From positions 1 to 40,777 of IMG/VR virus record IMGVR_UViG_3300036791_000397: a stretch of DNA of 40,777 nt; one strand, 5' to 3'. Position numbers and translations under genes: made by a program. Positions 3,344-40,777 of this stretch are shown piece by piece; within the stretch, counting starts at the first letter, position 1, and each line of letters begins with the position of its first letter. Under the pieces are notes generated by a model. That model searched no databases and was not told the DNA's origin. It saw only the letters and a list, made by a program, of their open reading frames with translations. The DNA comes from a virus.

Positions 3344-3368
3344 CGACGTTGCGGTGTCAACGTCACGT
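3335..3368 (+). promoter_or_regulatory. Early promoter-like motif P3
   Basis: CGGTGTTGAC at 3335-3344, with TCACGT (3363-3368) 17 bases after TTGACG. GTTGAC (3339-3344) and GTCAAC (3355-3360) form a 6-bp inverted repeat within the element, a possible operator. It overlaps the last codons of the preceding gene and lies about 55 bases before the exonuclease start at 3399. Confidence 0.55.
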
Positions 3369-3398
3369 TCCCCGGCGCAACGACTCGGAGAACGCCAG

Positions 3399-6806: not shown

Positions 6807-7009
6807 ACATCTGGGTCTGGCGCGCGGTGCTCACGCTCGGGTTCCCGTTCATCCTGGCGTGGAGCATCGGGCAGGTTTTCGTGGTCGGCATCTACCGGAC
6901 GTTCCGGGACGTCTGGCTGGAGATCCGAATCAACGTTGGCGACTTCGTGCGGTTCTGGAGAGATGGTCCGTTCATGAGTGGCAACCATGGCAAATCTGAC
7001 CAGGCGTGA
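6803..7009 (+). CDS. Small membrane protein
   Basis: A 68-residue protein with one clear membrane segment near the N-terminus ('RAVLTLGFPFILAWSIGQVF') followed by an amphipathic, aromatic-rich region. The ATG at 6803 overlaps the RecT stop codon (ATGA), so it is probably translated by coupling to RecT. No family is recognised. It overlaps the next gene by 23 bases. Confidence 0.55.
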   Translation: MNIWVWRAVLTLGFPFILAWSIGQVFVVGIYRTFRDVWLEIRINVGDFVRFWRDGPFMSGNHGKSDQA

Positions 7010-9901: not shown

Positions 9902-10717
9902 ATGGGTGAGAACAGCCTGATCGCCTGGACCGAGCACACCTACAATCCCTGGATCGGCTGCACGAAGGTCGGCAACGGGTGCATCGGCTGCTACGCCGAG
10001 GCCTACGACACCCGGTTCCTCAAGCACGGCCAGGATTCCCACTGGGGACCTGGCGCGCCGCGCCGGCGGACCAGCCTCCAGACGAGGAACCAACCCATCC
10101 GCTGGAACCGCCTGGCGGAGGCCCACCGGATCCCCGCCAAGGTCTTCGCCCACTCACTGTCGGACGTCTTCGACAACGAGGTGCCGCAGGAGTGGCGCGA
10201 CGAGGAGTTCCAGATGTGGCGCCGGACACCGTGGCTGCGGTGGATCGTGCTCACAAAGAGGCCAGGGAACATCTATGACATGCTGCCGAAGGACTGGTCT
10301 CCCACCACCTATCCGAACGTCGGGTTCTGCTGCTCGGTCTCAACGCAGGACGAGTTCGACCGCGACGTGGCGAAGCTGGTCAACCAGGTGGACGCCGCGT
10401 GGCTGGGCGTCTCCATCGAGCCACAGATCGAGGAGATCCGGATCCCATATGGTTCACCCCGGAGCATCCAGTGGATCATCACTGGCGGTGCCAGCGCCCA
10501 GCCAGGCTATGTTCCCCCACCCTACGACGTGGGGTGGGCGCGCAGCCTGATCTCGCAATGCCACGACTCCAAGATCGCGTGCTTCGTGAAGCAGCTCGGA
10601 TCCGTCCCGGTCAGCAGGGAGTGGATCTTCCCCTTGAAGGACAAGGCCGGCGCCGACCCGTCAGAGTGGCCGGCCGATGTCCGGGTCCGTGACTTTCCTG
10701 AGAACCTCGTGCGATGA
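9902..10717 (+). CDS. Phage Gp37/Gp68 family protein (DUF5131)
   Basis: A 271-residue member of the DUF5131 family, known from mycobacteriophage Gp37/Gp68 and many prophages. The signature is at the N-terminus: 'WTEHTYNPWIGCTKVGNGC' with cysteines C20, C27 and C30 (C-x6-C-x2-C, then YAE), suggesting an iron-sulfur or zinc site and a distant link to radical-SAM-like folds. Further conserved-looking parts are 'VFAHSLSDVFD', 'WIVLTKRPGNI' and 'WLGVSIEP', strand-like elements of a TIM-barrel. In bacteria the family often sits beside a three-Cys-motif partner (TcmP); none is visible here. The start at 9902 has AAAGGAGAATTTCG. Biochemical function is not established. Confidence 0.85.
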   Translation: MGENSLIAWTEHTYNPWIGCTKVGNGCIGCYAEAYDTRFLKHGQDSHWGPGAPRRRTSLQTRNQPIRWNRLAEAHRIPAKVFAHSLSDVFDNEVPQEWRDEEFQMWRRTPWLRWIVLTKRPGNIYDMLPKDWSPTTYPNVGFCCSVSTQDEFDRDVAKLVNQVDAAWLGVSIEPQIEEIRIPYGSPRSIQWIITGGASAQPGYVPPPYDVGWARSLISQCHDSKIACFVKQLGSVPVSREWIFPLKDKAGADPSEWPADVRVRDFPENLVR

Positions 10718-12236: not shown

Positions 12237-12950
12237 TCAGAACTTGTAGCTGACGCCAGCCCGGAACAGGTCCACCTGGAACGGGGCGGTGAGGGTCGCC
12301 ACGGCACCGTCCGTCACGGTGATCTTCCCGAGATCGACCCGGATCCACTCCGCGCGCGCCAGCCAGTTCCCCGTGAGGGCGAACTCGACGCCGCCGCCGG
12401 CCGCCCATCCCATCTTGGTGGAGGAGGAGTTGAACGTGGTCGGGTTCGGACCTGCGAGGGTGAAGGACGCCGACGGGTCTCCGTAGGCGAGCCCGGCCGT
12501 CCCGTAGACCATCAGGGTGGGGAGGAGGAACACGCCCAGGCGGGCGCGCACGGTCCCGAACACGTCGTCCTTGGAGCTGGCGGTGATCAGACCCGCGTTG
12601 GGGTTGGCCGCGCTCCCCTTCAGGTTCGCGAGGTCGATGTCCGCCTCGATTCCTGCGTAGAGGAGCTGGGAGGCAAACCGGGTTCCGAGTCCAGCGTGCA
12701 GACCCAGGTCGAACCCTTGAGGGGACGCGGCCAGGTCGGACGCGTTCTCCACCGCGAACGCACCGGCGCCGCTGGTGTTGAACCCGTACCCTCCGTGGGC
12801 TCCGATGTAGAACCCGGTGAAGGGATCGGTGCTGGTGATGACGGATTGGAGAGGTGCCTTCGTCGCCAGGTCGGCCGCGAACGCTGCCCCAGGTGCCGCG
12901 GCGATCGCCAGGATGACGGCCGCCCTCGTGGTGAAACTCTTCATGCGCAT
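12237..12950 (-). CDS. Outer-membrane beta-barrel protein (Omp25/Omp31-like)
   Basis: A 237-residue secreted barrel of the kind found in Rhizobiales (Omp25/Omp31/hemin-binding type). It has a signal peptide ('MRMKSFTTRAAVILAIAAAP' to a probable cleavage at AFA-AD), the early 'FTGFYIGAHGGYGFNTSG' strand, the tell-tale 'GTVRARLGVFLLPTLMVYGT' region, 'GWAAGGGVEFALTGNWLARA', and a C-terminal strand ending in Phe ('VSYKF'), as outer-membrane proteins require for assembly. The start at 12950 has AAGGGGAACGAC. A host-type membrane protein inside a lysis region suggests a host-modifying (lysogenic conversion or superinfection exclusion) role, or capture from a host. It was probably acquired from the host lineage. 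Confidence 0.8.
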   Translation of the reverse strand: MRMKSFTTRAAVILAIAAAPGAAFAADLATKAPLQSVITSTDPFTGFYIGAHGGYGFNTSGAGAFAVENASDLAASPQGFDLGLHAGLGTRFASQLLYAGIEADIDLANLKGSAANPNAGLITASSKDDVFGTVRARLGVFLLPTLMVYGTAGLAYGDPSASFTLAGPNPTTFNSSSTKMGWAAGGGVEFALTGNWLARAEWIRVDLGKITVTDGAVATLTAPFQVDLFRAGVSYKF

Positions 12951-13020: not shown

Positions 13021-13042
13021 CGTGTTGCGTCCGGGCAACACG
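13021..13042 (-). other. Perfect hairpin after the endolysin gene
   Basis: CGTGTTGC (13021-13028) / GCAACACG (13035-13042), 8-bp perfect stem with a 6-base loop, 10 bases downstream of the endolysin stop on the - strand. It lacks a U-tract. Its core GTTGCGTCCGG-CAAC resembles the dyad of the late element at 33683 and 28344, in the other orientation. Confidence 0.5.
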
Positions 13043-24794: not shown

Positions 24795-26864
24795 TCACAT
24801 GCTGCTGTAGCTGGGATTCTGGGACATGTGCCCGGCGACCATCTTGGCGAACTGCGGACCGAACCGCGTCAGGAACGCCTGGACGCCCGTCCCGTCGATC
24901 GCCGACACCTGGAACGTCACGTTGGCCGCCGCGCCCTGGCCGCCTCCGCCCATGTTCTGCGAAGCCGGGATGATCGCCTCCCCCTGGTGGACGAGGGCCA
25001 TGCCGGTGCGCGGCACGTAGTCGGTGCCGATCTCGAACGATCCCACGGTCGCCTTGGCAACAGCCACCTCCGCCGCCGCGGCTGCGGCGCCGGCGGCCGG
25101 AGCGGCGGGGCCGAGGGTTGGGGCGAAGAACGAGGTGAACCCGGCAGACAGCGGCCCGAGCAGACCGCTTATCATCTTCATGAACCCCGAGAACAGCTCC
25201 GTAGGCGCCGACAGCGAGTTCGCCAGGATGTTCGACAGCGGCTTCACGATGGCCAGCTTCTCGAACTCCTCGATCATCTTGATGACCAGGGACGAGGCGA
25301 TGTTCTTCATGGCGGTGGACCAGGACGTCGTGTGCGCCAGGAGTCCGCGGAGCTGGGAGTTCCACGCCCCCATGATGGTGTTCGTGACGCCTTCCCACTC
25401 CTGGACAGACTTCTTGAGCTGCTCCGCCTCCAGGGCCAGCCGCTCCTTGTCGATGGCACCCATCTCGTGCGCCATCTTGCGCCGGATCTGCTCCTGCTTG
25501 TTGGCGTTGTCGCCGGCCAGGGCGATCTCCTTCTCGAAGACCGCCTTCTCGGCCGTCTCGCGATCGGTCAGTGCCGCGAGGAGGTGCTTCACCTTCTGGG
25601 TCTCAGTCTCCTTGAAGGTGTCGACCGCGTTCTTCTCCGCGATCTTGATCTTGTCGTAGGACAGCCGGATGGCGTCGAGCTGCTCCTGCAGCTTCGTCAT
25701 CCCCGTGGTGTCCTTCTTCTTGTCGTCGTCATCGTCCTTGGCGAACTTGGTGGACCCGGCGCGCACCACGTCGTCGGCCACCCTCTTCGCGTCCGCGACG
25801 ATCTTGTCCCAGTCCACCCGCATCTGGGTGGTCTTCTCGGCTCCCACGTCGAGGCCGGCCATGGACGGCAGTGGCATGTCCCCGGCGCCGGGCGCCGTCT
25901 TGAACGGGTTCTCGAACTTCTGGGTCGCCATCAAGCCCTCGGCGCCGGATCCCTTCGTCGATCCGCGCTCCAGCCCCTGCATCTTCTCGACGGCGATCCC
26001 CAGCATGTTGATGAGGTTCTGCACGTAGGGAGTCAGGTCGACGATCATCTGCTTGAAGAACGTGGCCCAGTGCGAGCTAGCTGCGTTCCACTCCTTCTCG
26101 AAGGCCACAGCCTTGGCTACCATCTCGTCCTGCATGACGGCGCCGGCCGCATGCGCCCGCGCCTCCAGCTCCTGCATGTGAGCCGGTCCCTCGGCAAGAG
26201 TGCGCACCCACTCCTTGGAGAACCCGAGCAGTTCACCGGCCTTGAACTTGTCCGCCCACCCGTAGGCGTTCTCGATCAGCTTGGACGCTTCCACCAGGTA
26301 GCGGTCCATGGAGATGATGTGGTCGTTCTGGTCCTTCCACTTCACCCCGTTGGCGTCGAGGAACTTGCCCAGGTCCCCGGAGTCACGGACCATCTCGTTG
26401 AGCTTCTTGGACGCCTCCTCCAGGCCCTCCCTGACCTTGTCGTTGCCGACCCCGCCCTGGTTGAGCGCGTACTGGATCTCCTGGTATCGCTGGAGCGACA
26501 GCCCGGTCTCCCGAGCCGCCCGGTCCATCTTGACGAACTCCTCCTCGATGTCGTGGAACACCTTCAGCGCGCCGGCCGCGGCAGCGCCGATGGCCCCGCC
26601 GAAGAGGAGCTTCATCCACCCGGTGCTGAGTGTCGCGCCGCCCTTCTCGATGGTCTCGTTGAGCTGCTTGAACCCGTCGCCGATCGACCCAAGCGCATCG
26701 GTGACGGTGGAGAACGCCTCCGCCGTCTTAGACGCGAAGGTGTCGAGGGATGACTGGAGGGTCCCGACGCTGCTGGAGATCTCGTCGAGCCGCTTCTTGA
26801 CGGCCTCCGATCCCTTGTCGAGCTCGGCCGTGTCGGCGCCGATCTTGAGGTCGATGTCAGCCAT
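24795..26864 (-). CDS. Tape measure protein
   Basis: A 689-residue protein that sets the length of the tail tube and may be injected with DNA. The N-terminus 'MADIDLKIGADTAELDKGSE' and the long run of charged heptad-like helices (about 1-75, 140-330, 395-520) are typical. A hydrophobic segment near 83-103 ('MKLLFGGAIGAAAAGALKVF') may span the membrane, and the end 'GTDYVPRTGMALVHQGEAII' is a common tape-measure C-terminal motif. At about 1.5 angstrom per helical residue, 689 residues suggest a tail of roughly 100 nm. It starts inside the end of the G-T frame, as usual after tail chaperones. Confidence 0.85.
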   Translation of the reverse strand: MADIDLKIGADTAELDKGSEAVKKRLDEISSSVGTLQSSLDTFASKTAEAFSTVTDALGSIGDGFKQLNETIEKGGATLSTGWMKLLFGGAIGAAAAGALKVFHDIEEEFVKMDRAARETGLSLQRYQEIQYALNQGGVGNDKVREGLEEASKKLNEMVRDSGDLGKFLDANGVKWKDQNDHIISMDRYLVEASKLIENAYGWADKFKAGELLGFSKEWVRTLAEGPAHMQELEARAHAAGAVMQDEMVAKAVAFEKEWNAASSHWATFFKQMIVDLTPYVQNLINMLGIAVEKMQGLERGSTKGSGAEGLMATQKFENPFKTAPGAGDMPLPSMAGLDVGAEKTTQMRVDWDKIVADAKRVADDVVRAGSTKFAKDDDDDKKKDTTGMTKLQEQLDAIRLSYDKIKIAEKNAVDTFKETETQKVKHLLAALTDRETAEKAVFEKEIALAGDNANKQEQIRRKMAHEMGAIDKERLALEAEQLKKSVQEWEGVTNTIMGAWNSQLRGLLAHTTSWSTAMKNIASSLVIKMIEEFEKLAIVKPLSNILANSLSAPTELFSGFMKMISGLLGPLSAGFTSFFAPTLGPAAPAAGAAAAAAEVAVAKATVGSFEIGTDYVPRTGMALVHQGEAIIPASQNMGGGGQGAAANVTFQVSAIDGTGVQAFLTRFGPQFAKMVAGHMSQNPSYSSM

Positions 26865-27464
26865 TGAACTGCCCCATCCCGTCGATCCGGCCGCCCGTCG
26901 CCTGGATCATGCGGCGCAGCTCCTCCGCCGTCATGTACTTGTTCTCCGGCTCCTTGCCGTTCGCCTTGCTGAGGTCCGGAAACTCCACACCGAGCGCCTT
27001 GGCGACGCACGCGACCAGGACCCGCAGCGGTGGGTTCCGGCGCCAGTACCTGTGCATCATGGAAACGTCGCTCAGCGTCATCTTCCTGACCTCGGACGGC
27101 GGGATGCCGTGTTCCACGAACGGCCCGAACACGTCGGGCCAGAAGTCCGGGTCGGTCAGGCTTCGCCGGTCTCCTGGCCCGTCGGAGGGTTTGGTTCCGC
27201 AGCCTTCAGACCGGCCAGTTCCAGGATCGTCTGGGACGCCGCCGTCAGCTCGTCCATGTCGAGTTCGACGGTTCCGGGATCCACGCTCGGCGCCGCGCGC
27301 TCCAAGGCGATGCGCAGGATGGCGAACGACACCCTCCCAACCCTCACGCCGCCATCGGTCCCGGAGGAGTTGATGATGTCCGTGACGCGCTCCAGCTCTC
27401 CGATGTTGAAGGCGTGGATGGTGTACTCTTCGCCTCCGAGCGTGATCTTCGCCGTCTTTGCCAT
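26857..27464 (-). CDS. Tail assembly chaperone G-T made by -1 frameshift
   Basis: The product of the G reading frame extended by a -1 frameshift into the downstream frame ending at 26857. G-T binds the tape measure and recruits the major tail protein during tail assembly. The slippery heptamer A_AAC_CCT is in the right phase at 27192-27186 (codon 92, AAC, then CCT). After slippage the frame continues 'SDGPGDRRSLTDPDFWPD', then 'VFGPFVEHGIPPSEVRK', 'YWRRNPPLRVLVACVAKALG' and 'MTAEELRRMIQATGGRIDGM', a typical T-part. The T-part has no convincing start codon of its own. Frameshifting itself is predicted, not proven. Confidence 0.75.
27156..27464 (-). CDS. Tail assembly chaperone G (short form)
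   Basis: A 102-residue protein, the short form of the tail chaperone pair. It lies between the major tail protein and the tape measure, the invariant siphovirus place for it. 'KITLGGEEYTIHAFNIGELE' resembles the N-terminal part of small tail assembly chaperones. The C-terminus after the slippery heptamer ('PPTGQETGEA') is the short unframeshifted tail. It has a start at 27464 with a standard spacing from the major tail gene. It is usually made in excess over the frameshifted G-T form. Confidence 0.75.
   Translation of the reverse strand: MAKTAKITLGGEEYTIHAFNIGELERVTDIINSSGTDGGVRVGRVSFAILRIALERAAPSVDPGTVELDMDELTAASQTILELAGLKAAEPNPPTGQETGEA
27186..27192 (-). promoter_or_regulatory. -1 programmed frameshift site AAACCCT
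   Basis: On the - strand the sequence CCA-AAC-CCT holds the heptamer A_AAC_CCT (X XXY YYZ). Its phase with the ATG at 27464 is exact (codon 92), and the -1 frame from here is open to 26857. Y = C is less usual than A or T. No clear pseudoknot was found downstream, though the following 25 bases are G/C-rich. Confidence 0.65.
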
Positions 27465-27476
27465 GTCGTCTCCAGG

Positions 27477-28283
27477 TCAAGAAATCTCCGGGAAGACCAT
27501 GTTGTACACATTCTGCGAGGCGTTGGCGAAGAACCCGATGTCGAACTCGGGGATGGCGAAGTCCTCCAGCTTGAACGGCAGCATGTGCTTGGCCGACACG
27601 CACGAGTAGAGCCGGAGCGCGAACGGCTTGGACGATGGCTGGTTGAAGTTCGTGTAGTAGTCGAGCTGGAACGTCGGGGTCGAGCCGATCAGCTGGTTGG
27701 ACACCAGCAGGCTCTGGCCCACGCTCGTCGTGTTCGTGTAGGTAACCTTGATGGGGTTCGTGGCGCCGGCGAGGATCGACGTCGAGTCGGCGGCGGAGAA
27801 GTTGTACAGCCCGGGCGAGCCGGTCGTGAGGCTGTACTTCCCGAGCGCCTCCAGTCCGGTCGAGACCCGCTGGAGCGGCAGGCCCGGCGTGTTGACCGTG
27901 CTGGCCCCGTAGGTGATGCCGAGGTCGGCGTCGAAGGTCAGGGACGATCCCACCTGCAGCGTCGTCGCCGCCGTCGAGAGCGAGAACGTGGACCCCACGT
28001 TCCACGCGATCTGGCCGGTGGTGCTGGTCCCGGTCCCCCCGTAGAACACCGCGGCCCAGGCGAGCCCGGACAGGACGGCCGCCTTGATCTTGGCGGTTCC
28101 CTTGATGGTGCCGCGCGCGACGGCGAGGGGCCACTGGAACTGACCGTAGAGTTCCTTGATGACGCCGGCAGCTTCGAACGAGAACTCTTGGGCATACCCG
28201 ATGTTGACGGGTGCTGGGATCGCGATGTCGGTCCGGGAGACGATCAGGATCCCGGGACCGAAGGCTGCGAGGGGCGTGGACAT
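27477..28283 (-). CDS. Major tail (tube) protein
   Basis: A 268-residue beta-rich protein placed immediately before the G/G-T chaperones and tape measure, the canonical place of the tail-tube protein. 'GPGILIVSRTDIAIPAPVNI' with 'YAQEFSFEAAGVIKELYGQ' and 'VARGTIKGTAKIKAAVLSGL' follow the usual tube protein layout (N-terminal strand, loop, first sheet, 'G.iKgkak' segment). Ser/Thr-rich insertions in the middle ('GTGTSTTGQIAWNVG') may form surface loops. The start at 28283 has CGGGAGAACC. It is preceded by late element B and a hairpin, suggesting its own strong transcription start. Confidence 0.8.
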   Translation of the reverse strand: MSTPLAAFGPGILIVSRTDIAIPAPVNIGYAQEFSFEAAGVIKELYGQFQWPLAVARGTIKGTAKIKAAVLSGLAWAAVFYGGTGTSTTGQIAWNVGSTFSLSTAATTLQVGSSLTFDADLGITYGASTVNTPGLPLQRVSTGLEALGKYSLTTGSPGLYNFSAADSTSILAGATNPIKVTYTNTTSVGQSLLVSNQLIGSTPTFQLDYYTNFNQPSSKPFALRLYSCVSAKHMLPFKLEDFAIPEFDIGFFANASQNVYNMVFPEIS

Positions 28284-28295
28284 GGGTTCTCCCGC

Positions 28296-28313
28296 GGCGT
28301 CATGGTGGACGCC
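28296..28313 (-). other. 5' hairpin before the major tail gene
   Basis: GGCGTC (28296-28301) / GACGCC (28308-28313), 6-bp stem with a 6-base loop, extendable by a G-U and a G-C pair to 8 bp on the - strand. It lies directly downstream of late element B and just before the Shine-Dalgarno GGGAG of the gene at 28283. It parallels the hairpin at 33634-33657 and may protect the 5' end of the message. Confidence 0.6.
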
Positions 28314-28315
28314 AC

Positions 28316-28365
28316 AGGATTACCCCGTCCGGAGGGCGGCGGATATTCGTTGGCTGGACGCAACC
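28316..28365 (-). promoter_or_regulatory. Late bipartite element B (putative late promoter)
   Basis: On the - strand: GGTTGCGTCCAGCCAACGAATA (28365-28344), a 20-base spacer, then GTAATCCT (28323-28316). The same blocks at the same spacing form element A at 33655-33704. GAATAT and GGTAAT are 17 bases apart and could act as -35/-10 boxes, with the GTTG...CAAC dyad as an activator site upstream. It lies 33 bases before the major tail gene start. Confidence 0.7.
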
Positions 28366-28390
28366 GCGCTGAGCGGTGGAAGGGGCGAGG

Positions 28391-28555
28391 GTGTGGACCA
28401 TCGAGGAGTACATCGACGGCCGGTGGGTGAGGATCAAGACGTTCGACACGGAGGAGGAGGTGGACAAGCAGCTGGCACGGCTCCGGAGGCTCAACCCGCG
28501 CGTCCATTACCGCAAGAAGCGCCGGTCGTCCGCGTTCTCCTGGTGGTGGTCATAG
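28391..28555 (+). CDS. Small protein encoded opposite to the late genes
   Basis: A 54-residue frame on the + strand in the gap between two leftward genes, overlapping the end of the gene at 28550 by six bases tail to tail. 'WTIEEYIDGRWVRIKTFDTE' reads like a folded beta-alpha start, followed by a helix 'EEVDKQLARLRRLNP' and a very basic end 'YRKKRRSSAFSWWW'. The GTG at 28391 has AAGGGGCGAGG directly upstream. It is divergent from the major tail gene across late element B. No family is recognised; the basic tail suggests nucleic-acid binding. The composition is protein-like, unlike the chance frames around it. Confidence 0.55.
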   Translation: MWTIEEYIDGRWVRIKTFDTEEEVDKQLARLRRLNPRVHYRKKRRSSAFSWWWS

Positions 28556-28846
28556 AATCCCGCGGACGATCCACCTGACCTGGGACCACAGGAAGATGGC
28601 GCTGATGATCATCCAGAACCAATGACCGTCGCCCTTCATCTTGAGGCCGTCGTGCGCCGACTGGATGCTCACCAGGCGGGTGTGCCATTCCGGGTCGTGC
28701 TTCCACCGGCTCAGGTCCTCGTAGGGGAGCGGCCCAGTCCATCCCATCTTCTCGTTGAGAGCGTTCCGGTACTCTTCGACGACGTCGTGCCCACGGGCGC
28801 GGACGCGCTCCTCCTCGTAGAGTGCGGGTATGAACGACTCGGTCAC
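28550..28846 (-). CDS. Small protein with C-terminal membrane segment
   Basis: A 98-residue protein from the GTG at 28846, which overlaps the TGA of the tail terminator gene. It is hydrophilic and Trp-rich through residue 75 ('MGWTGPLPYEDLSRWKHDPE') and ends with a hydrophobic, aromatic segment 'WFWMIISAIFLWSQVRWIV', a likely tail anchor. No family is recognised. Being the last gene before late element B, it ends the head-tail connector block. A membrane-anchored product among virion genes is odd; it may be a non-structural helper, such as an assembly or exclusion factor. Confidence 0.6.
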   Translation of the reverse strand: MTESFIPALYEEERVRARGHDVVEEYRNALNEKMGWTGPLPYEDLSRWKHDPEWHTRLVSIQSAHDGLKMKGDGHWFWMIISAIFLWSQVRWIVRGIL

Positions 28847-29364
28847 GGGAGCATGATCTTCACCGGGACCGTCATGAGGCCCTGCCCGTAAGGGTCGATG
28901 TCCCCGGTGGCCCAGTGCGACTCGCCCTCGATCCAGCAGTGGCTCACCAGGCCGCCCAGGGTCAGAGCGTTCTCGGAGTCGACCAACTGGAACACGCCCT
29001 CGATGGCTTCCGACAGCGGTCCGAAGACGGCTCCTCCGGGTGTGAACGCGTCTGTTCCCTCCGCGGTCCCGCCGCCCGGCATCTGAGCATAGATGACGAT
29101 CGTCCTGGACACGACCCGCACCGTGGGACGGCCGCGGCCCCTCTGCTCGAACTTCGTCGTGCCACCGCCGAACCCCACCCCGTCGTAGAGGATCAGGCAA
29201 GGCTGCGGGAACGGCTGGGTGTTGTTCTGGAGGGAGATCATCAGCGCCTCCCACGGGATGTAGCGGCGCGTGACGGTCCGGAAAAGGCCCGGAGTGAGCT
29301 GGGCCTGGAGGAGGGCCAGCAGCGCGTTCATGATCGGCTCATAGATGGATGGGAGCGCCGTCAT
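28843..29364 (-). CDS. Putative tail terminator (gpU-like)
   Basis: A 173-residue protein in the position of the tail terminator between the gp10-like gene and the major tail gene. The N-terminal helix 'MNALLALLQAQLTPGLFRTV', 'RYIPWEALM' and the later 'TIVIYAQMP' match conserved parts of a family of minor tail proteins in rhizobial phages ('al...l.a...F.t..Rr..pw', '...L.iYa'). Such proteins cap the finished tail tube and join it to the head. It overlaps the gene before it by 26 bases and the one after it by 4. Confidence 0.6.
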   Translation of the reverse strand: MTALPSIYEPIMNALLALLQAQLTPGLFRTVTRRYIPWEALMISLQNNTQPFPQPCLILYDGVGFGGGTTKFEQRGRGRPTVRVVSRTIVIYAQMPGGGTAEGTDAFTPGGAVFGPLSEAIEGVFQLVDSENALTLGGLVSHCWIEGESHWATGDIDPYGQGLMTVPVKIMLP

Positions 29365-29716
29365 CTGGTTGACCTCTCGCGCCTCTGTGCATGGGCGCCG
29401 GCGGATCCCTTACCATGAAATACCGGCCGATCCCCGTGGCGACGCAGTTGAAGGTGTGCCACTCGCTGTGCGTCACCTTCGGGGAGAACGTCACCTTGGC
29501 GACGAACCCAGGCAGCCCGGTGCTAGTCCTCCCCTTCTTGTGCTGGTGCATCGACAGCCTGAGCAGGAACAGATCTCCGCGCGCCGGGTGGAAGTAGTAG
29601 CGGCTCTCGCTGCTGCCAGACTGCGTGCGGAGCATGAACCCGGCCTCGACCAGCATGCGCGCAGCGACCTCGCACGCCGTGACGCAGTCGATCGGGTCGC
29701 GGCTCCGCTCCGGCAT
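29339..29716 (-). CDS. Hypothetical connector-region protein
   Basis: A 125-residue protein from ATG 29716 (a GTG three bases upstream is also possible; GGAGGCGGGATC lies before them, and both overlap the stop of the gp10-like gene). The N-terminal half has a helix with two cysteines ('CVTACEVAARMLVEAGFML') and the centre a strand-rich stretch ('ESRYYFHPARGDLFLLRLSM'). The C-terminus overlaps the next gene. No family is recognised. By position it belongs to the head-tail joining block. The phage small-protein relative at 30201 shares a 'F-RLS-H' type centre, but I cannot confirm homology. Confidence 0.5.
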   Translation of the reverse strand: MPERSRDPIDCVTACEVAARMLVEAGFMLRTQSGSSESRYYFHPARGDLFLLRLSMHQHKKGRTSTGLPGFVAKVTFSPKVTHSEWHTFNCVATGIGRYFMVRDPPAPMHRGARGQPDDGAPIHL

Positions 29717-30204
29717 CACGATCCCGCCTCCTTGGCACCCTCACGGGCGGCCTTGGCGATGGCCTGCTCGATCTCGGTCTCCATCGACTGGAAGGCGTTG
29801 AGCGTGTAGTGGATCCCTTTGAACCCGGGGTGGTTCACCTGCTTGAACGACACGAACTTCCCCAGCTTGTCCCAGAAGAAGTACAGCGCCGCGGCGTTCT
29901 TGGCCGCGATCACGTGGGGCCTGGTCCCGTCCTCCAGCCACAGCGGCAGCAGGTACGGCTCCCTCGTGGAGACGGTCGTCACCAGCCCGTAGATCGACGT
30001 CGGGTTCTCCACCATCTGCTTCTTGACGACCAGACGGCGCCGGGTCTTGAGACCGCTGTTGAGGTTGTCGTCCACCTTGGCCCCGAGCCGCTTGGTCAGG
30101 TCGGGGAGGACCCGCCGAAGATTCGCCCGGACCATGGCCGGCAGCTTCCCGCCCGGCCCGAACTTGGCGATCGCGTCCCTGGTGTCCACCTTGATGGAGA
30201 TCAT
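29716..30204 (-). CDS. HK97 gp10-like tail completion protein
   Basis: A 162-residue protein of the HK97 gp10 family, which helps finish the head-tail joint or the tail. From the ATG at 30204 (overlapping the previous stop), an N-terminal 'VDTRDAIAKFGPGGKLPAMV' helix, 'LTKRLGAKVDDNLNSGLKT', and then the family's hallmark sequence 'LEDGTRPHVIAAKNAAALYF' with a following 'VNHPGFKGIHYTLNAFQSM' are visible ('GTrPH.I.a......l.F......v....v.HPG'). The end is a helix rich in Ala/Glu. Length fits the family. Confidence 0.85.
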   Translation of the reverse strand: MISIKVDTRDAIAKFGPGGKLPAMVRANLRRVLPDLTKRLGAKVDDNLNSGLKTRRRLVVKKQMVENPTSIYGLVTTVSTREPYLLPLWLEDGTRPHVIAAKNAAALYFFWDKLGKFVSFKQVNHPGFKGIHYTLNAFQSMETEIEQAIAKAAREGAKEAGS

Positions 30205-30515
30205 GCCGCCGCTCCTATGCGCTCCAGGCACCGCTCGATGTACCGCTCCTTCTGGTGCTGCGCGAACGCAGGAAGGTCACCGGACAGGATGGGCTGGAGG
30301 ACCGCGTTGCGGATGACGTGCAGGTGGATGGCGCGGGATTCGCCGGACCATTCGTGGTCCGACAGCCGGATCCTGAACGGGTACGGTGGGAGGCGCATGT
30401 AGATCGAGCCGTTGCGGCTGCGCTTCACCCGCATGAACCCGATCCTCGCCATGTGGCTCGCGACCTCGAGCACGAGCGTCCTCCCGCTCAGCAGGACCTT
30501 CCCACCATTTGCCAT
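30201..30515 (-). CDS. Hypothetical connector-region protein
   Basis: A 104-residue basic protein. ATG 30515 has GGGGAGGACGTCC upstream, 15 bases after the stop of the adaptor gene. The core 'LVLEVASHMARIGFMRVKRS' and 'IYMRLPPYPFRIRLSDHEW' suggest a small alpha-beta fold; the end is a helix with His and Gln. I do not recognise a family. It lies between the head-tail adaptor and the gp10-like protein, where stopper or neck proteins are encoded, so that role is plausible but unproven. Confidence 0.55.
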   Translation of the reverse strand: MANGGKVLLSGRTLVLEVASHMARIGFMRVKRSRNGSIYMRLPPYPFRIRLSDHEWSGESRAIHLHVIRNAVLQPILSGDLPAFAQHQKERYIERCLERIGAAA

Positions 30516-30529
30516 CGGACGTCCTCCCC

Positions 30530-30997
30530 CTACGGACGCGAGTCGGTGTCCGGCGGAGACGCCGTGGGAGTCTGCTGGCCGACGGGACTGACGGGGAGGA
30601 GGTCGTCGAACTGGCCCTTGTTGAAGTCCGGCGGGACGCGGTCGGTGTCCTGGGTGATCTGGTTCTTGCTGGTGACGGAGATGCCGCCGGAGAAAGGCTG
30701 GATCCCGCGGAACCCGCGCTGCTCGAAGTCCGTGGCCATCTGACCGTAGCGTCTGGAGATCTGGCTGTAGTTCGTCTTCAGCTCTCCCTGGACCAGGTCC
30801 ACCTGCTGGCCGAACTTGGTGGCGATCGAACGGCACACCTCCGCGCACGCGCCGTAGATCGTCGAGTACCGGCCGAGCGAGAACGTGATCTCCTCATCCT
30901 GGACCAGCTGCTTGCCCTGCGTGACGTCTCCCACCAGGTAGCGCGCCTGCATGAGCGGGCTGGTGCCGAGCTGTCCTGCGTCATACGTCCAGGTCAT
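30530..30997 (-). CDS. Head-tail adaptor (gp6-like)
   Basis: A 155-residue protein that resembles head-tail connector adaptors which sit under the portal. 'MQARYLVGDVTQGKQLVQDE' followed by 'EITFSLGRYSTIYGACAEVC' and 'IATKFGQQVDLVQGELKTNY', with 'SQISRRYGQMATDFEQR', follow the family pattern ('vR.liGDt......l.D.eI...l.......AA...adalaakfa..vd...g......s.r...y..la..l'). The C-terminus is a Pro/Thr/Asp-rich tail. It is the first connector gene after the block of surface-type proteins. Confidence 0.75.
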   Translation of the reverse strand: MTWTYDAGQLGTSPLMQARYLVGDVTQGKQLVQDEEITFSLGRYSTIYGACAEVCRSIATKFGQQVDLVQGELKTNYSQISRRYGQMATDFEQRGFRGIQPFSGGISVTSKNQITQDTDRVPPDFNKGQFDDLLPVSPVGQQTPTASPPDTDSRP

Positions 30998-31000
30998 TGG

Positions 31001-31657
31001 TCATGTCTCCGCCAGGCATCTGATGTGCCCCCACAGGGTGAGCGTCTGCCCGTCCGACGTCCCCGCGGTGCAGGTCAGAAAGTAGGCGGCGCCCGCCTTC
31101 ATCGTGGTCACCTGCTGCTGGACACCCTGGCTGGGCTTGCCGCTGCTCGGTGACGCTACCACCGACGGCGCCCCCGTCAACCTGGTGGCCGGCGAGGGAT
31201 CCACGCCGGACCTCAGCCCGCACGTCGTAGTCAGGGGCGTTCCAGAGAGCGTGACTCCGGTCCCCAGCCACGGGGCGAAGTCCCACGTGACGGTGACGGT
31301 CTCCGTGGCGTCCACGGGGGAGAAGTCGTTTCCCTGCGGCATTGCTGGTCCAATCCTCGCCGTCACCGTGATGCGTTTCGCTGAGTATGTCACGCCGCCC
31401 CTGCGTTGTGCAGCGGTGGCGGCAACCCTGATCCCAGGAAAGACGGAGGAGATCCGCGCCACCCCACCGGAGGCTCTCACCCTGGAGAATGGAAGCGTGA
31501 GGAACCGCGGGTCGAACTTGAGCGTCGTCTGCGGGACGCTGTACCCGCCGAACCATTTCCCGATGAAGGACCGGTATCCCGCGCCGTGCGCCGGCGGCGG
31601 CGGTGAAGCATACCCGCCGAACCAAAACCCGAACTGGGAACGGTAGCCGCCAGCCAT
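31001..31657 (-). CDS. Beta-rich virion protein with N-terminal GYRS..WFGGY repeat
   Basis: A 218-residue protein. At the N-terminus a 17-residue unit occurs twice: 'GGYRSQFGFWFGGYASP' and 'AGYRSFIGKWFGGYSVP', separated by a Pro-rich spacer. The central part carries 'FSPVDATETVTVTWDFAPWL' followed by 'GVDPSPATRL', a pattern I associate with a beta-sandwich phage protein family of unknown function. The end ('YFLTCTAGTSDGQTLTLWGH') is also strand-like. It stands between the tail-fibre-like gene at 31659 and the adaptor. It may be a head-fibre or decoration protein, the aromatic repeats acting as an anchor. Confidence 0.6.
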   Translation of the reverse strand: MAGGYRSQFGFWFGGYASPPPPAHGAGYRSFIGKWFGGYSVPQTTLKFDPRFLTLPFSRVRASGGVARISSVFPGIRVAATAAQRRGGVTYSAKRITVTARIGPAMPQGNDFSPVDATETVTVTWDFAPWLGTGVTLSGTPLTTTCGLRSGVDPSPATRLTGAPSVVASPSSGKPSQGVQQQVTTMKAGAAYFLTCTAGTSDGQTLTLWGHIRCLAET

Positions 31658-31658
31658 C

Positions 31659-32336
31659 CTACGGTCCCGCCGGGTCCACCGTCACGATGGGGATGGCGCC
31701 GGCGTTGGTGGTGACCGCTCCCGCCCACGAGACCGAGGCGTCATCCTCCTTGTAGACGGTCACGCTCGTCCCCGACGACAGGTCAACCTTGTTGCGCAGG
31801 GTGCGGAGCGCCTGGCGCGTGGTCCGCACGCTGGCTGACCCGGAGTCCGTCCCCACCGACATGTCGCGGTCCAGGAGAGCATCGGCGATGCTCGTGCGCT
31901 CCCCGGACGTGAGCGCGTAACCGGTCTTGTCGTTGTTGGTGCTGACAGTGACCCCGGCCGTGACGCTGGCCACCGACCCACCGACGTTCCCGGTCACGCT
32001 TCCCACGGAGCCGGCGACGCTGGCCGGAAGGGTGTCCCCCAGGATGTTCGCGGTCACCTGGTCGATGAAGTTCGTCGGATCCCCCGAGGCCGCGGTGCAG
32101 CAGAACGCCAGGTCCCCGAGCGTCCCGGTGTCGGTCGTCGTCAGGGCGATCTTGTAGAGGCCGGGGCAGTTGGTGGAGTCCACCTCCGTGACCGTCCCGC
32201 CGGCCGCCGCGCCGGCGCCTCCCGCCTTGGAGAGCTTCACCACCGGGGTGGCACCGGTCAGGCCCGCGATGTGGTCCGCCGAGGCGATCATCATGAACGT
32301 GCGGGTGTAGGCGGTGCTCTGCTTGAGGTTGGCCAT
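31659..32336 (-). CDS. Fibre/baseplate-type structural protein
   Basis: A 225-residue protein with two recognisable parts. The N-terminal 120 residues ('MANLKQSTAYTRTFMMIASA', 'TPVVKLSKAGG', 'NCPGLYKIALTTTDTGTLGD') match a beta-sandwich module common in phage baseplate and fibre-like proteins. The second part, 'SVTGNVGGSVASVTAGVTV' followed by 'NNDKTGYALTSGERTSIADA', is a low-complexity linker and helix seen after that module in viral metagenomic proteins. Genomic position is between capsid and connector genes rather than among tail genes, so it might be attached to the head or neck. Confidence 0.6.
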   Translation of the reverse strand: MANLKQSTAYTRTFMMIASADHIAGLTGATPVVKLSKAGGAGAAAGGTVTEVDSTNCPGLYKIALTTTDTGTLGDLAFCCTAASGDPTNFIDQVTANILGDTLPASVAGSVGSVTGNVGGSVASVTAGVTVSTNNDKTGYALTSGERTSIADALLDRDMSVGTDSGSASVRTTRQALRTLRNKVDLSSGTSVTVYKEDDASVSWAGAVTTNAGAIPIVTVDPAGP

Positions 32337-32337
32337 G

Positions 32338-33105
32338 TCACGCTGCCTTCGGGAGGATCAGGGGATCTCGCAGCAGCAGCCCACCGCGACCGGACCGGTT
32401 CCAGCGACCGTGCACCTGGCGCGATCCTGAGCGCGTCCCGATCGGCGACAGCGTCCTGCGGAACGTGGCGGACGGTGCGGCGCCGGCCGCCTTGAACGTC
32501 GCAATGAGGGCGGCGTCGGATCCCGTCAGCGCCACGGAGCGCGTCATCTGCGGGTTCGTGGCCACGGCCGAGGTCTGTATGAGGTAGGCGGCGACGATGC
32601 CGAAAGCGGATCCCGGTGCGACGTCCCTGGACTGGGCTATCGTGTAGCCGCTGTCGATCGAGAACGAGGAACCGCTCGGGGCGTCCACCGTGTACGCCGC
32701 GACGCACAGCTCATTGCTCTGGGACGGGGTGACGCTGCCTGGCGTCTCCTGGGTGGTGCCGGACCCGAATATCGCTGAGCTGGTCTTGTCCAATGGGTTC
32801 GACGCAGATCCCGAGAAGGCGAGGACCGCCATGGCGCCGTTGTTGACACCGCTGTTCCACGAGAGCTGGTGAGCCGCGTTCGTCACGGGATTGTGGAAGG
32901 AGAAGATGTAGCCCCAGCAATTGTCCGTGGTCTGGGCGGATATGTTGGCCGCTCCCCACACGTTGCCGGCGGAGTCCCCGATGGTGGGCGGGTTCGTGTC
33001 CCCCGTGAACACGGAGACGCAGAGCACTATGAGATCTGCACCCGTCGTGTTCAGGGTGCCGATGGTCTGAACACCGCTGACGCTGGCTACAAAGCTGTAG
33101 GCCAC
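32338..33105 (-). CDS. Beta-sandwich adhesin-like virion protein
   Basis: A 255-residue protein dominated by a beta-sandwich domain of a type frequent in phage adhesins: 'TGADLIVLCVSVFTGDTNPP', 'DSAGNVWGAANISAQTTDNC', 'AVLAFSGSASNP', 'GSVTPSQSNELCVAAYTVD' and a closing 'GSDAALIATFKAAGAAP'. The last 35 residues are Arg/Gly/Ser-rich. Family members are thought to bind carbohydrates, but no binding residues can be named. It is flanked by other surface-type proteins, consistent with a set of head or neck fibres. Confidence 0.6.
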   Translation of the reverse strand: MAYSFVASVSGVQTIGTLNTTGADLIVLCVSVFTGDTNPPTIGDSAGNVWGAANISAQTTDNCWGYIFSFHNPVTNAAHQLSWNSGVNNGAMAVLAFSGSASNPLDKTSSAIFGSGTTQETPGSVTPSQSNELCVAAYTVDAPSGSSFSIDSGYTIAQSRDVAPGSAFGIVAAYLIQTSAVATNPQMTRSVALTGSDAALIATFKAAGAAPSATFRRTLSPIGTRSGSRQVHGRWNRSGRGGLLLRDPLILPKAA

Positions 33106-33124
33106 AGATCAACCCCATGGAGGA

Positions 33125-33622
33125 TCAGGTGCCTTCGGCGAAGTTGAACCCGGCGCCCCAGTTGGTGAGGGACGATGCCGCCGCCGGGAGGAACAGCCCG
33201 AACCCGCCTACCAGTCCGGTGGGCAGGTCGATCAGCTCGCGCGGGGTCGGAACCCACAGGTATCCGTTCAGGACGTTGAAGTTGTCCCCGAACATGACCG
33301 TCTTGGATCCGGCCCCCTCGGCGGAGGCGTTGATCCCGACCGTGCCCTGCGCGCCGGCCGTGCCGCCGGTGATGATGGACGCCGTGCCGTCGCCAAGCTT
33401 GAGGTGGCGCGGGGTCGCCGACGTGAGGGTCGGGAAGACGCTGACCTGGGTCTCCGCCTGGATGCGCTGCTGGCCGGACGTGGACGTCCCCTGCTGGGAG
33501 GCCCACATGCGCAGGATCTGGAGGTTGAGGTTGGGGGCGGCGGTGGGGTTGAGGAACACGAGGGTGACGGCGCTGTTGCCGAGCGTGAGGCCGTCACCGC
33601 CGACTGAGAACTCGCGCGACAT
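33125..33622 (-). CDS. Conserved rhizobial-phage structural protein
   Basis: A 165-residue beta-rich protein. It has several features I associate with a family frequent in alphaproteobacterial phages: 'MSREFSVGGDGLTLGNSAVT', 'LVFLNPTAAPNLNLQILRMW', 'SATPRHLKLGDGTASI', 'GTVGINASAEGAGSKTVMFG' and 'NGYLWVPTPRELIDLP'. The family is unnamed, probably virion-associated (neck, decoration or fibre base). It is the first gene after late element A and a hairpin that overlaps its ribosome-binding site (AGGAG, then CACACCCAG before ATG 33622), so it should be strongly and separately expressed. Confidence 0.6.
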   Translation of the reverse strand: MSREFSVGGDGLTLGNSAVTLVFLNPTAAPNLNLQILRMWASQQGTSTSGQQRIQAETQVSVFPTLTSATPRHLKLGDGTASIITGGTAGAQGTVGINASAEGAGSKTVMFGDNFNVLNGYLWVPTPRELIDLPTGLVGGFGLFLPAAASSLTNWGAGFNFAEGT

Positions 33623-33633
33623 CTGGGTGTGCT

Positions 33634-33657
33634 CCTCGGGGGTGATCCGCCCCGAGG
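33634..33657 (-). other. 5' hairpin overlapping the ribosome-binding site
   Basis: CCTCGGGG (33634-33641) / CCCCGAGG (33650-33657), a perfect 8-bp stem with an 8-base loop. On the - strand its 3' arm CCCCGAGG runs into AGCAC, so part of the Shine-Dalgarno GAGGAG of the gene at 33622 is in the stem. It begins at the end of late element A (TAATCCTCGGGG). It could stabilise the message or limit translation. Confidence 0.6.
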
Positions 33658-33704
33658 ATTACATGATCGGTCACCGGTTTTGTATTCGTTGGCCGGACGC
33701 AACC
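33655..33704 (-). promoter_or_regulatory. Late bipartite element A (putative late promoter)
   Basis: On the - strand: GGTTGCGTCCGGCCAACGAATA (33704-33683), a 20-base spacer, then GTAATCCT (33662-33655). It differs from element B (28316-28365) by one base in 30 across both blocks, while the spacers are unrelated. It lies directly after the stop of the glycosyltransferase fusion and 33 bases before the start at 33622. Confidence 0.7.
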
Positions 33705-33705
33705 C

Positions 33706-35676
33706 TCACTTGGCCACGGACGCCCTCAGGTCCGCCTCGATCTCCTCGACGACCGTGCTCCAGTCGCCGTCCGTGACCTGCTGGTAGGACCTCGCGAAGG
33801 GATACCAAGGGCACACCAGCTTCCCGACCTGCCAGAGCCAGTACGTCCGGTAGGAGGTCAACATCACCCACGTGGGAACCCCAAGGGATCCGGCCAGATG
33901 CGCCACCGCCGTGTCCACCGTGATGACTAGGTCCATAGTCTCGATCGCACAGGCAGTTTCCAGGAAGTTCGGCAGGTTCGATTCCATGTTCCAGATATGA
34001 ACTTCTCGGAACATGACCTTGTCAGTGTCCCGAACGTCGAGCTGAAGGCTGTAGAAGTCGATCCCCTCTATGTCGAACAGCGGACGGAGCGCCTCCAGCG
34101 GGATGTTCCGGTGCTTGTCGTACTGGCTGTCCCTGCCGCCGGACCAGCACAGGCCGACCTTCAGCCGTCCCGGTGTGAACGTCCTGGCGATCACCGCACC
34201 CTTCCACCTGGCCACGTCCTTCGGGGGAAGATGGAACTTGGCCGGCGGCGGTATCGTGTCGACGTCCGTCCCGCAGCGGTGCGCAAGGGACATCATGTCC
34301 ACCCAGCAGTCGAACTTCGGGGAGTACTTCCCGTAGACCTGGACATGGGGCAGGCACGCCATCAGCGGCTCCAGGGTGGGCTGGACCGTCACCAGGACGT
34401 GGATGCTCATGTTCACCAGGTGCGAGAAGTACCGGGAGAACATGATGTTGTCGCCGAACCCCATCTCCCCCACCACCAGCAGCGTCTTGCCGAAGATGTC
34501 CTCCCCCTTCCACTCCGGGAACTGCGTGATCGCCTCAGGCCGGATCTGGCGCTTGCGGCTCTCGAAGTCGAGGAACCCGTCCCGGATCGCACCGAGGCGG
34601 AGACGGGCGAACCCACGCCCGAACGTGGCCAGGTCCCGCAGCTCGGGATTGCCACCGTCGATAACGATCTGGTATTCGCTCAGCGACTCCTTGAACTTGT
34701 TCACCTGCATGTGGAGGGTGGCATAGTTCAACCAGGCGAGATGGTGCAACGGATGGAACTCGTTGCCGAGGAGCCCACTGTTCTCCAGGATGTCCATCGC
34801 CTCGCGTGGATCACCCGATTCCCCCACCTCGTTGGCCCGACGGATGGCCGCGTCCTCCTCCGTGCCGGCCGAGTTCGCCGCGGCGAAGTCCCAGTCCAGG
34901 TATTTGACCTCCTCCGGGCAGGCCAGCATGTTCATCCCCGAGGGCGCCGTCTTGTACCGGACGCTCTCCATGAAGTGCATGAGCGCCACCTCGTCCACCT
35001 TGATGCGCTCGACCAGGATGATCGGCCGGCACCGTTCGATGGTGGCCTTGGCTCCCCGGAGCGCCTCCAGCTCCATCCCCTCCACGTCGATCTTGAGGAC
35101 GTCCAACCGCTCGATGTTCATGATGTCGATTGGCCACGCGGGGACCATGGTGGTGGGGTTCTTGCGGTCGATCGGCTGGCCGATGTCTTCGGTGAGGCCG
35201 TCCGGGCGCTCCCGCAGCTCGAAGCTGCCGAACGACCCCGGCTTTGAGTAGTCCGGATCCGCGACGCCGATCCGGCCGGCCTTGTCGGTCACGGCTCCCC
35301 ACATGACCCGGACGTTCAGCAGGTTGTTGATGGTGACGTTCCCGGCGAGGGCGTAGAACAGCCGCTCTTGGGCCTCGATGCCGACGACGATCCCCCAGGG
35401 ACGCTCCTGGCCGGTCCCCGCCATCAGCCGCGCACACTCAACGGTCAGAACGCCGATGTTGGCCCCGCAGTCCATCATCACCACGTCGTCTCCGTGGTGC
35501 TGCCTGCGCAGCCTCAGAAGCTCCCCCAGCAGCTCGACCTCGCCCTGCTCATACCTCCCGTGGTGGAGGATCTGGGCGCCGACCCCGTAGGTCATCCCGT
35601 CGGCGTTGGTGTTGTGGTCGTTCAGCGGGACGATCATCGTACCGTGGGCCGTGTTGGCCAGGATGAACGGCATCAT
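33706..35676 (-). CDS. FkbM methyltransferase - TPR - glycosyltransferase fusion
   Basis: A 656-residue sugar-modifying enzyme. Residues 1-260 are an FkbM-type S-adenosylmethionine methyltransferase: 'VVMMDCGANIGVLTVECARL' (motif I, 66-85), 'GIEAQ' (99-103), 'LKIDVEGMELEALRGA' (194-209). Residues about 275-375 are TPR-like helices. Residues 385-650 are a GT-B-type glycosyltransferase half: 'LLVVGEMGFGDNIMFSRYF' (399-417), 'KVGLCWSGGRDSQYDKHRNI' (506-525), 'FYSLQ' (541-545), 'DLVITVDTAVAHLAGSLGVP' (582-601) which is the usual donor-binding region of TPR-linked enzymes. Start MM at 35676/35673; 35676 overlaps the previous stop. Location among virion genes suggests glycosylation of capsid or fibre proteins, or of host surface sugars; not proven. 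Confidence 0.82.
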   Translation of the reverse strand: MMPFILANTAHGTMIVPLNDHNTNADGMTYGVGAQILHHGRYEQGEVELLGELLRLRRQHHGDDVVMMDCGANIGVLTVECARLMAGTGQERPWGIVVGIEAQERLFYALAGNVTINNLLNVRVMWGAVTDKAGRIGVADPDYSKPGSFGSFELRERPDGLTEDIGQPIDRKNPTTMVPAWPIDIMNIERLDVLKIDVEGMELEALRGAKATIERCRPIILVERIKVDEVALMHFMESVRYKTAPSGMNMLACPEEVKYLDWDFAAANSAGTEEDAAIRRANEVGESGDPREAMDILENSGLLGNEFHPLHHLAWLNYATLHMQVNKFKESLSEYQIVIDGGNPELRDLATFGRGFARLRLGAIRDGFLDFESRKRQIRPEAITQFPEWKGEDIFGKTLLVVGEMGFGDNIMFSRYFSHLVNMSIHVLVTVQPTLEPLMACLPHVQVYGKYSPKFDCWVDMMSLAHRCGTDVDTIPPPAKFHLPPKDVARWKGAVIARTFTPGRLKVGLCWSGGRDSQYDKHRNIPLEALRPLFDIEGIDFYSLQLDVRDTDKVMFREVHIWNMESNLPNFLETACAIETMDLVITVDTAVAHLAGSLGVPTWVMLTSYRTYWLWQVGKLVCPWYPFARSYQQVTDGDWSTVVEEIEADLRASVAK

Positions 35677-40395: not shown

Positions 40396-40777
40396 TCAGC
40401 TCGCCATCCGGGCGCCGAGCTTGAGGAACCGCTCTCTGCGCTCCTGCTCCATCAGCTCCCGGTTGGCAGGGTCGAGGTAGGCCTTCTCGAACGCCTGGGC
40501 CTCGGTGAGTGCCGGATTTGCCTTGCGAACCTCGTCGGCCTTGGCCTTGAGCAGCGCCTGGGCGCCCTCCCCCGTGGTCCCGTCGTTGCCGCGGCCAGTG
40601 CCGAACTCGTCGAACAGCTTCCCAGTGCGGACCTGGGCGTTCTGAGCCTTGGCGAGCGCCACCATGTAGCCCTCGTAGGTCTTGATGGCCGCCGTGTCTC
40701 CCCGGCGCATCTTCATCAGGACCTCGCCGGCGTCGTTCTGGGTCAGGCCCATCTCCTTGGCGTCGCGCGTGGCGATC
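40396..40777 (-). CDS. C-terminal end of a prohead protease/scaffold-type protein (partial)
   Basis: The - strand frame is open to the right edge of the window, so only the last 126 residues of a larger protein are visible; ATG 40752 is probably internal. The end contains 'ALTEAQAFEKAYLDPANREL' after a helical, Lys/Ala-rich stretch, a pattern common at the C-terminus of phage prohead proteases or scaffold proteins (Mu I-type and relatives), where 'ls..qA...vy.dpan..L' recurs. The gene lies directly upstream of decoration and capsid genes, the usual place. The fragment has no catalytic residues, so protease or scaffold cannot be distinguished. Confidence 0.55.
   Translation of the reverse strand, partial: IATRDAKEMGLTQNDAGEVLMKMRRGDTAAIKTYEGYMVALAKAQNAQVRTGKLFDEFGTGRGNDGTTGEGAQALLKAKADEVRKANPALTEAQAFEKAYLDPANRELMEQERRERFLKLGARMAS

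Follow-up and report, generated by a model that had tools for sequence, protein, structure and literature searches.

What is the function of a pair of sequence blocks that occurs twice, at a fixed spacing, on the minus strand of the IMG/VR virus record IMGVR_UViG_3300036791_000397? We analyzed the whole 40,777-base record (about 66% G+C), termed the window here, together with related viral contigs. A first-pass annotation, made from the window alone, had read the element as a late promoter with a GTTG...CAAC dyad just upstream and a leader hairpin after each copy. The late promoter is still the best reading, since the blocks recur before the tail and head genes of relatives, while the dyad as a defining part and the hairpin as a conserved one were not upheld. 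Judged from sequence comparison, the element is probably a factor-dependent, weakly sigma70-like late promoter class of a lineage of uncultivated soil siphophages.

On the minus strand, the element consists of GGTTGCGTCC(A/G)GCCAACGAATA, a 20-base gap and GTAATCCT, and is located at 33704-33655 (copy 1) and 28365-28316 (copy 2). The paired blocks are identical at 29 of 30 bases between the two copies, and the 20-base spacers are dissimilar. In both copies the end of the downstream block lies 33 positions from a start codon (33655 to 33622 and 28316 to 28283). A search of the window confirmed these features of the first-pass annotation: with up to three mismatches permitted, two matches were found in the window and none across 100 shuffles (chance expectation 0). 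The upstream block searched alone likewise occurs twice, and a window scan with the downstream block and CAACGAATA returned both known copies and nothing else. The blocks and the genes that follow them are:

33683-33704, minus strand: copy 1, upstream block GGTTGCGTCCGGCCAACGAATA, with the dyad GTTG-N8-CAAC and the GAATA of the -35 region
33655-33662, minus strand: copy 1, downstream block GTAATCCT, with the predicted -10 sequence TAATCC at 33661-33656
33125-33622, minus strand: gene 3' of copy 1, 165 amino acids (aa), no family, with homologues elsewhere that lack the element
28344-28365, minus strand: copy 2, upstream block GGTTGCGTCCAGCCAACGAATA
28316-28323, minus strand: copy 2, downstream block GTAATCCT, with the predicted -10 sequence TAATCC at 28322-28317
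27477-28283, minus strand: tail gene 3' of copy 2, 268 aa, PHROG 8234, with orthologues in L083-L086 that have the element in the same place

A simpler pattern, CAACGAATA-N19..21-GTAATCC, was tried on all viral contigs and rejected; its 78 matches are essentially a chance yield, and the upstream block was present in none of them. Near DNA relatives of the window in phage records, or a contig overlapping its right end, were not found.

Relatives of the 268-aa tail protein formed the tail comparison set. In four of them (L083, L084, L085 and L086), with tail proteins 73-75% identical to that of the window and the same gene order, the element lies ahead of the orthologous tail gene at the same position and with the same 20-base gap. 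Its form there is (C/T)G(A/G)ATT, 20 bases, GTAAA(C/T), in which both blocks are recognizable with altered letters. The stop codon of the preceding gene immediately adjoins the element in L083 and L085, and in L084 and L086 its immediate 5' neighbor is a strong 9-bp hairpin with a TTCG loop; for the L084 hairpin, a pattern scan calls a terminator on the opposite strand and, by eye, a T-rich stretch follows on the gene strand. The window gene had been annotated as the major tail gene, which is plausible from its place ahead of the tape measure gene, but its sole family, PHROG 8234, is one without an assigned function.

When all viral contigs were scanned for the pattern, essentially two positions emerged for the element, the tail gene and the first head gene. 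The second position is represented by 12 diverged phages, with the exact spacing in ten (L113, L111, L142, L112, L116, L123, L127, L126, L120 and L229) and a spacing one base longer or shorter in L115 and L136. L113 and L142 came from relatives found via the major capsid protein, and the element there is 5' of a gene upstream of the capsid gene. The product of this gene (466 aa in L113) has a partial match to distant capsid maturation proteases, and we therefore use the neutral name first head gene. The window holds its 3' part:

40396-40777, minus strand: first head gene, 3' part, with the gene start beyond the contig end

Window positions 40408-40776 align to residues 341-462 of the L113 protein. 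No element was seen by eye in the sequences upstream of the major capsid gene of relatives, and no site was found where expected in farther relatives of the head or tail genes (L087-L099, L131-L134 and L188-L190).

The two gene positions were cross-tested with weight matrices. When only head-gene sites of other phages were used for training, the window sites took the top two places among 81,416 positions, and the outcome for the window was unchanged when the most distant of these sites served as the training set. The head-gene-trained matrix also gives the tail sites of L083-L086 the top rank within each contig; in G001, a 31-kb contig, the tail site comes second, with the contig's own head-gene site ahead of it. 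Conversely, a matrix trained on the tail and window sites ranks the head sites of L113, L111 and L142 first. In the 16 aligned sites, AT and TAA are invariant, and the G before TAA and the C five positions past AT are nearly so. The same motif thus stands ahead of several late operons in one genome, directed toward their genes, in the window and in G001, where exactly two strong sites occur, one at the head gene and one at the tail gene. It also recurs in front of homologous late genes in relatives, namely the first head gene in the 12 phages and the tail gene in L083-L086. From these alignments we take it that the element is common to a lineage and not peculiar to this contig.

The position of the element relative to start codons was then considered, with the T of TAA numbered -12. 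In seven phages (L113, L111, L142, L112, L116, L115 and L136) the start codon of the first head gene follows this T by 12-14 bases (+1 to +3), and no Shine-Dalgarno sequence is evident by eye; the messages of their first head genes are probably leaderless. The distance is 31-40 bases in four other phages and 45 in L229, and the tail gene starts 36-44 bases away in eight phages. These spacings fit a promoter that would give a leaderless message at the head gene and a short leader at the tail gene. They also bear on a quite different idea, that the element is a conserved junction or DNA-processing sequence, such as a recombination linker or a packaging or replication site. The element does occur at the edges of cassettes, and the gene that follows copy 1 is different from those of relatives. 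However, the fixed start-codon distance, the constant orientation to late genes, the several copies per genome and a co-conserved regulator gene, described below, make a processing site highly improbable.

With the numbering above, the alignment of 16 sites places the promoter hexamers and the starts of transcription in the window as follows:

33679-33684, minus strand: copy 1, predicted -35 hexamer TACAAA, 17 bases ahead of the -10
33647-33651, minus strand: copy 1, predicted transcription start, about 33649, with TAA set as -12 to -10
28340-28345, minus strand: copy 2, predicted -35 hexamer TATCCG
28308-28312, minus strand: copy 2, predicted transcription start, about 28310, with TAA set as -12 to -10

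The 17-base gap had originally been assigned to GAATAC and TGTAAT, which are 18 bases apart; it fits the interval from TACAAA or TATCCG to TAATCC. At -35 to -30, five lineages have TATACA and others have TTTCCA, TTTCCG, TACAAA or TATCCG, and the spacer is 17 bases long. The -35 region carries GAATATACA in distant relatives, GAATTTCC in near ones and GAATA in the window, and the -10 is TG-TAAW. The match to sigma70 is poor, with 4-7 of 12 bases at the fixed hexamers and 6-8 of 12 for the best alternative. Compared with the consensus (TTGACA/TATAAT, 16-18 bases apart), the window copies have a spacing of 17, yet match at 4-5 of 12 bases at the fixed hexamers.

This poor match, together with the conserved non-consensus positions (GAA before the -35 and TG before TAA), would also be expected if an alternative sigma factor, either phage-encoded or from the host, recognized the element in place of sigma70 with a factor. 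On the other side, searches of 15 and 23 records, all fragments, gave no match to Sigma70_r2 and only below cut-off matches to Sigma70_r4, and we consider an alternative sigma factor rather unlikely. A further reading is that the element promotes transcription in the opposite direction, toward a small gene divergent from the first head gene. In several lineages the opposite strand reads ATTACA or TTTACA, 16-17 bases and TATATT, and the start codon of the small gene lies at a constant 59-65 bases from TAA (6 lineages). At the tail-gene copies and at window copy 1, though, such a promoter would run antisense into the preceding gene, and the tail start codon, too, lies at a constant distance. A solely reverse promoter is therefore very unlikely in our view; the head-gene copy may have reverse activity in addition, acting as a divergent promoter.

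The small divergent gene (90-113 aa) is present in L113, L142, L111, L116, L115, L123 and L120. In L112 it is farther away, behind an apparent insertion of a GIY-YIG endonuclease gene (5735-6960), and the element has stayed with the head gene. The product matches MarR, PadR and related winged-helix families, and its structure model (mean predicted local distance difference test score, pLDDT, 79.6) resembles MepR, ZitR and PadR structures with E values of about 1e-4. A profile of the protein revealed more members beside L127, L126, L136, L229, L117 and L225. Among non-redundant loci, allowing a spacing of plus or minus one base and omitting loci with short or uncertain upstream sequence, the element was found in 12 of 14 loci with the winged-helix gene and in 0 of 25 without it (Fisher p 2e-8, a statistic that ignores descent). 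The element is not recognizable in L225 and L117, although both have the winged-helix gene; in L117 this gene and the head gene share a strand. Conversely, the winged-helix gene adjoins the head-gene copy in all 12 scorable element-positive loci, and the window itself stops short of this region. On the basis of this gene layout, we tentatively regard the winged-helix protein as the best candidate for a factor acting on the element. In layout, size, family matches and fold the gene resembles MarR/PadR regulators that are divergent from their targets. It differs from them in that no sequence relative was found among 50,697 isolate and deposited phage records, and in its putative target, a set of multi-copy late promoters.

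The same adjacency, 12 of 12, can be read in another way, with the paired blocks mainly an operator at which the winged-helix regulator represses or activates, and with the real promoter hexamers overlapping it only in part. The sequence TWTWCA...TGTAAA within the blocks is indeed an imperfect inverted repeat with about two helical turns between its halves. Nevertheless, the halves are unequally conserved, with AT invariant on one side and TAA on the other, and TAA keeps its fixed distance to the start codon. The two halves of a site match each other at 4.00 of 7 positions versus 4.07 of 7 for halves swapped between sites, with no excess of covariation. Because the halves show no self-match excess, a simple dimer operator is unsupported, and we hold the operator explanation to be unlikely.

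Several observations weigh against a late promoter under the control of the winged-helix protein. The reading of the opposite strand matches sigma70 slightly better than the forward one, at 7-9 of 12 bases. The winged-helix gene could be a mere neighbor, given that the association ignores descent, and many loci without it have zero gap ahead of the head gene. The tail-trained matrix performs weakly on the farthest head sites, which rank 2-12, and its failure on L115 stems from the extra base there. The head-gene copy and the regulator are both outside the view that the window gives. L081 has no clear copy of the element. Finally, in other phages the element is absent ahead of homologues of the gene that starts at 33622, on which ground copy 1 looks like a local addition. 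The first-pass annotation had proposed that the paired blocks be sought ahead of homologous genes in related phages; the proposal held for the tail gene, and for the head gene that lay outside its view, but not for the homologues of this gene.

The dyad and the hairpins, to which the first-pass annotation had given a role in the element, were compared separately. The GTTG/CAAC dyad of the window spans 16 bp with 4-bp repeats and is centered near -46. Near relatives have a GCGCGC palindrome at this position, and distant relatives have nothing clear there. Altered in the former and lost in the latter, the dyad is not a defining part of the element. Two inverted repeats can be drawn from the sequence at the leaders:

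33635-33656, minus strand: copy 1, inverted repeat CTCGGGG/CCCCGAG, with the left arm overlapping the end of the -10 and the predicted start
28296-28313, minus strand: copy 2, leader hairpin GGCGTC/GACGCC

The copy 2 leader folds better than shuffles (z -2.6), but for copy 1 the segment that begins three bases 5' of the predicted start and ends at the ATG shows no gain in folding over its shuffles. Among relatives, L085 and L086 are marginal like copy 2, and L081 and L082 resemble copy 1. The hairpins gave no Rfam match. A sequence one mismatch from the dyad, GTTGCGTCCGGGCAAC, occurs at window 13024-13039 on the plus strand within a perfect hairpin, GTGTTGC/GCAACAC, between an endolysin-like gene and an unassigned 237-aa gene (12237-12950, possibly a membrane protein); this hairpin is perhaps a terminator or a further regulator site.

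Several other genes of the window were noted. A 656-aa protein with an FkbM methyltransferase domain is encoded at 33706-35676 on the minus strand, directly ahead of copy 1 and within the structural cluster. Just behind copy 2, at 28376-28555, a 59-aa plus-strand open reading frame with coding-like base composition and no family lies within the minus-strand late operon. A long frame at 26857-28134 on the minus strand overlaps the tail gene, and its downstream part is separately conserved in relatives, as expected of tail assembly chaperones between the tail and tape measure genes. The early genes at 1405-2184, 3354-4472, 5556-6806 and 9902-10717, all on the plus strand, encode an MT-A70 type DNA methyltransferase, an exonuclease VIII-like protein, a RecT-like protein and a DUF5131 protein.

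Late promoters of the T4 and SPO1 type are read by a phage sigma factor or co-activator. The element is like them in being one short motif repeated ahead of several late operons, and unlike them in that neither sigma region 2 nor a confident region 4 was found in the fragments searched; its motif is, to our knowledge, unlike those of such promoters. In phage Mu, the Mor site at Pm is a 16-bp element with 5-bp repeats, centered at -43.5, which replaces the -35 element (PMC4390567). The poor -35, the sigma70-type spacing and the position and length of the window dyad recall Pm. However, the Mor family (PF08765) is absent from the 15 fragment records, the dyad is lost in distant relatives, and the candidate factor encoded beside the element resembles MarR and PadR winged-helix regulators. 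In gene transfer agents (GTAs), a dedicated factor acts together with RNA polymerase at the -10/-35 region (PMC9638019, PMC11150451). The likeness to the GafA/GafYZ control of GTAs in Alphaproteobacteria lies in the late structural operon with GTA-like tail genes. Unlike that system, GafA-type DUF6456 (PF20057) is absent from the 15 fragment records, with the Caulobacter control genome positive; moreover, the sites differ in kind, as the GafZ palindrome sits between the -10 and -35 and the GafY site is far upstream. A published description of such a motif or regulator was not found in a literature search that lacked most subscription journals.

The window tail genes carry GTA-type domains (Rcc01698-type), and bacterial contigs that carry the nearest capsid relatives (60%) are from metagenome bins labeled Asaia, Acetobacteraceae and Elstera; from these affinities, the host is likely one of the Alphaproteobacteria. 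In the proposed mechanism, each copy of the element would start a late operon, with one copy at the first head gene and one at the tail gene in relatives, and with the tail copy plus an extra copy ahead of a cassette gene in the window. Transcripts would begin some 12 bases past the T of TAA, which would leave the first head gene message of the seven phages leaderless. The host RNA polymerase would need a phage factor, as suggested by the poor sigma70 match and by the lack of a sigma factor in the fragments searched. The divergent winged-helix protein would activate the promoter and control its own gene. Since the window ends inside the first head gene, the regulator and a third copy of the element are predicted shortly beyond the contig end, the copy about 1 kb away and the head-gene start near 41,800.

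We thus offer, as a possibility somewhat short of even, a late switch in which a MarR/PadR-like protein activates multi-copy GAATWT(A/C)C-N16-TGTAAW promoters and controls its own gene, with most first head messages leaderless. Such a switch would be previously undescribed. If this is true, the element provides a readable late-promoter code for soil phages known from metagenomes only, from whose sequences operons and gene timing would be predictable, and it names both a candidate regulator and a set of head genes that would be translated without a leader.

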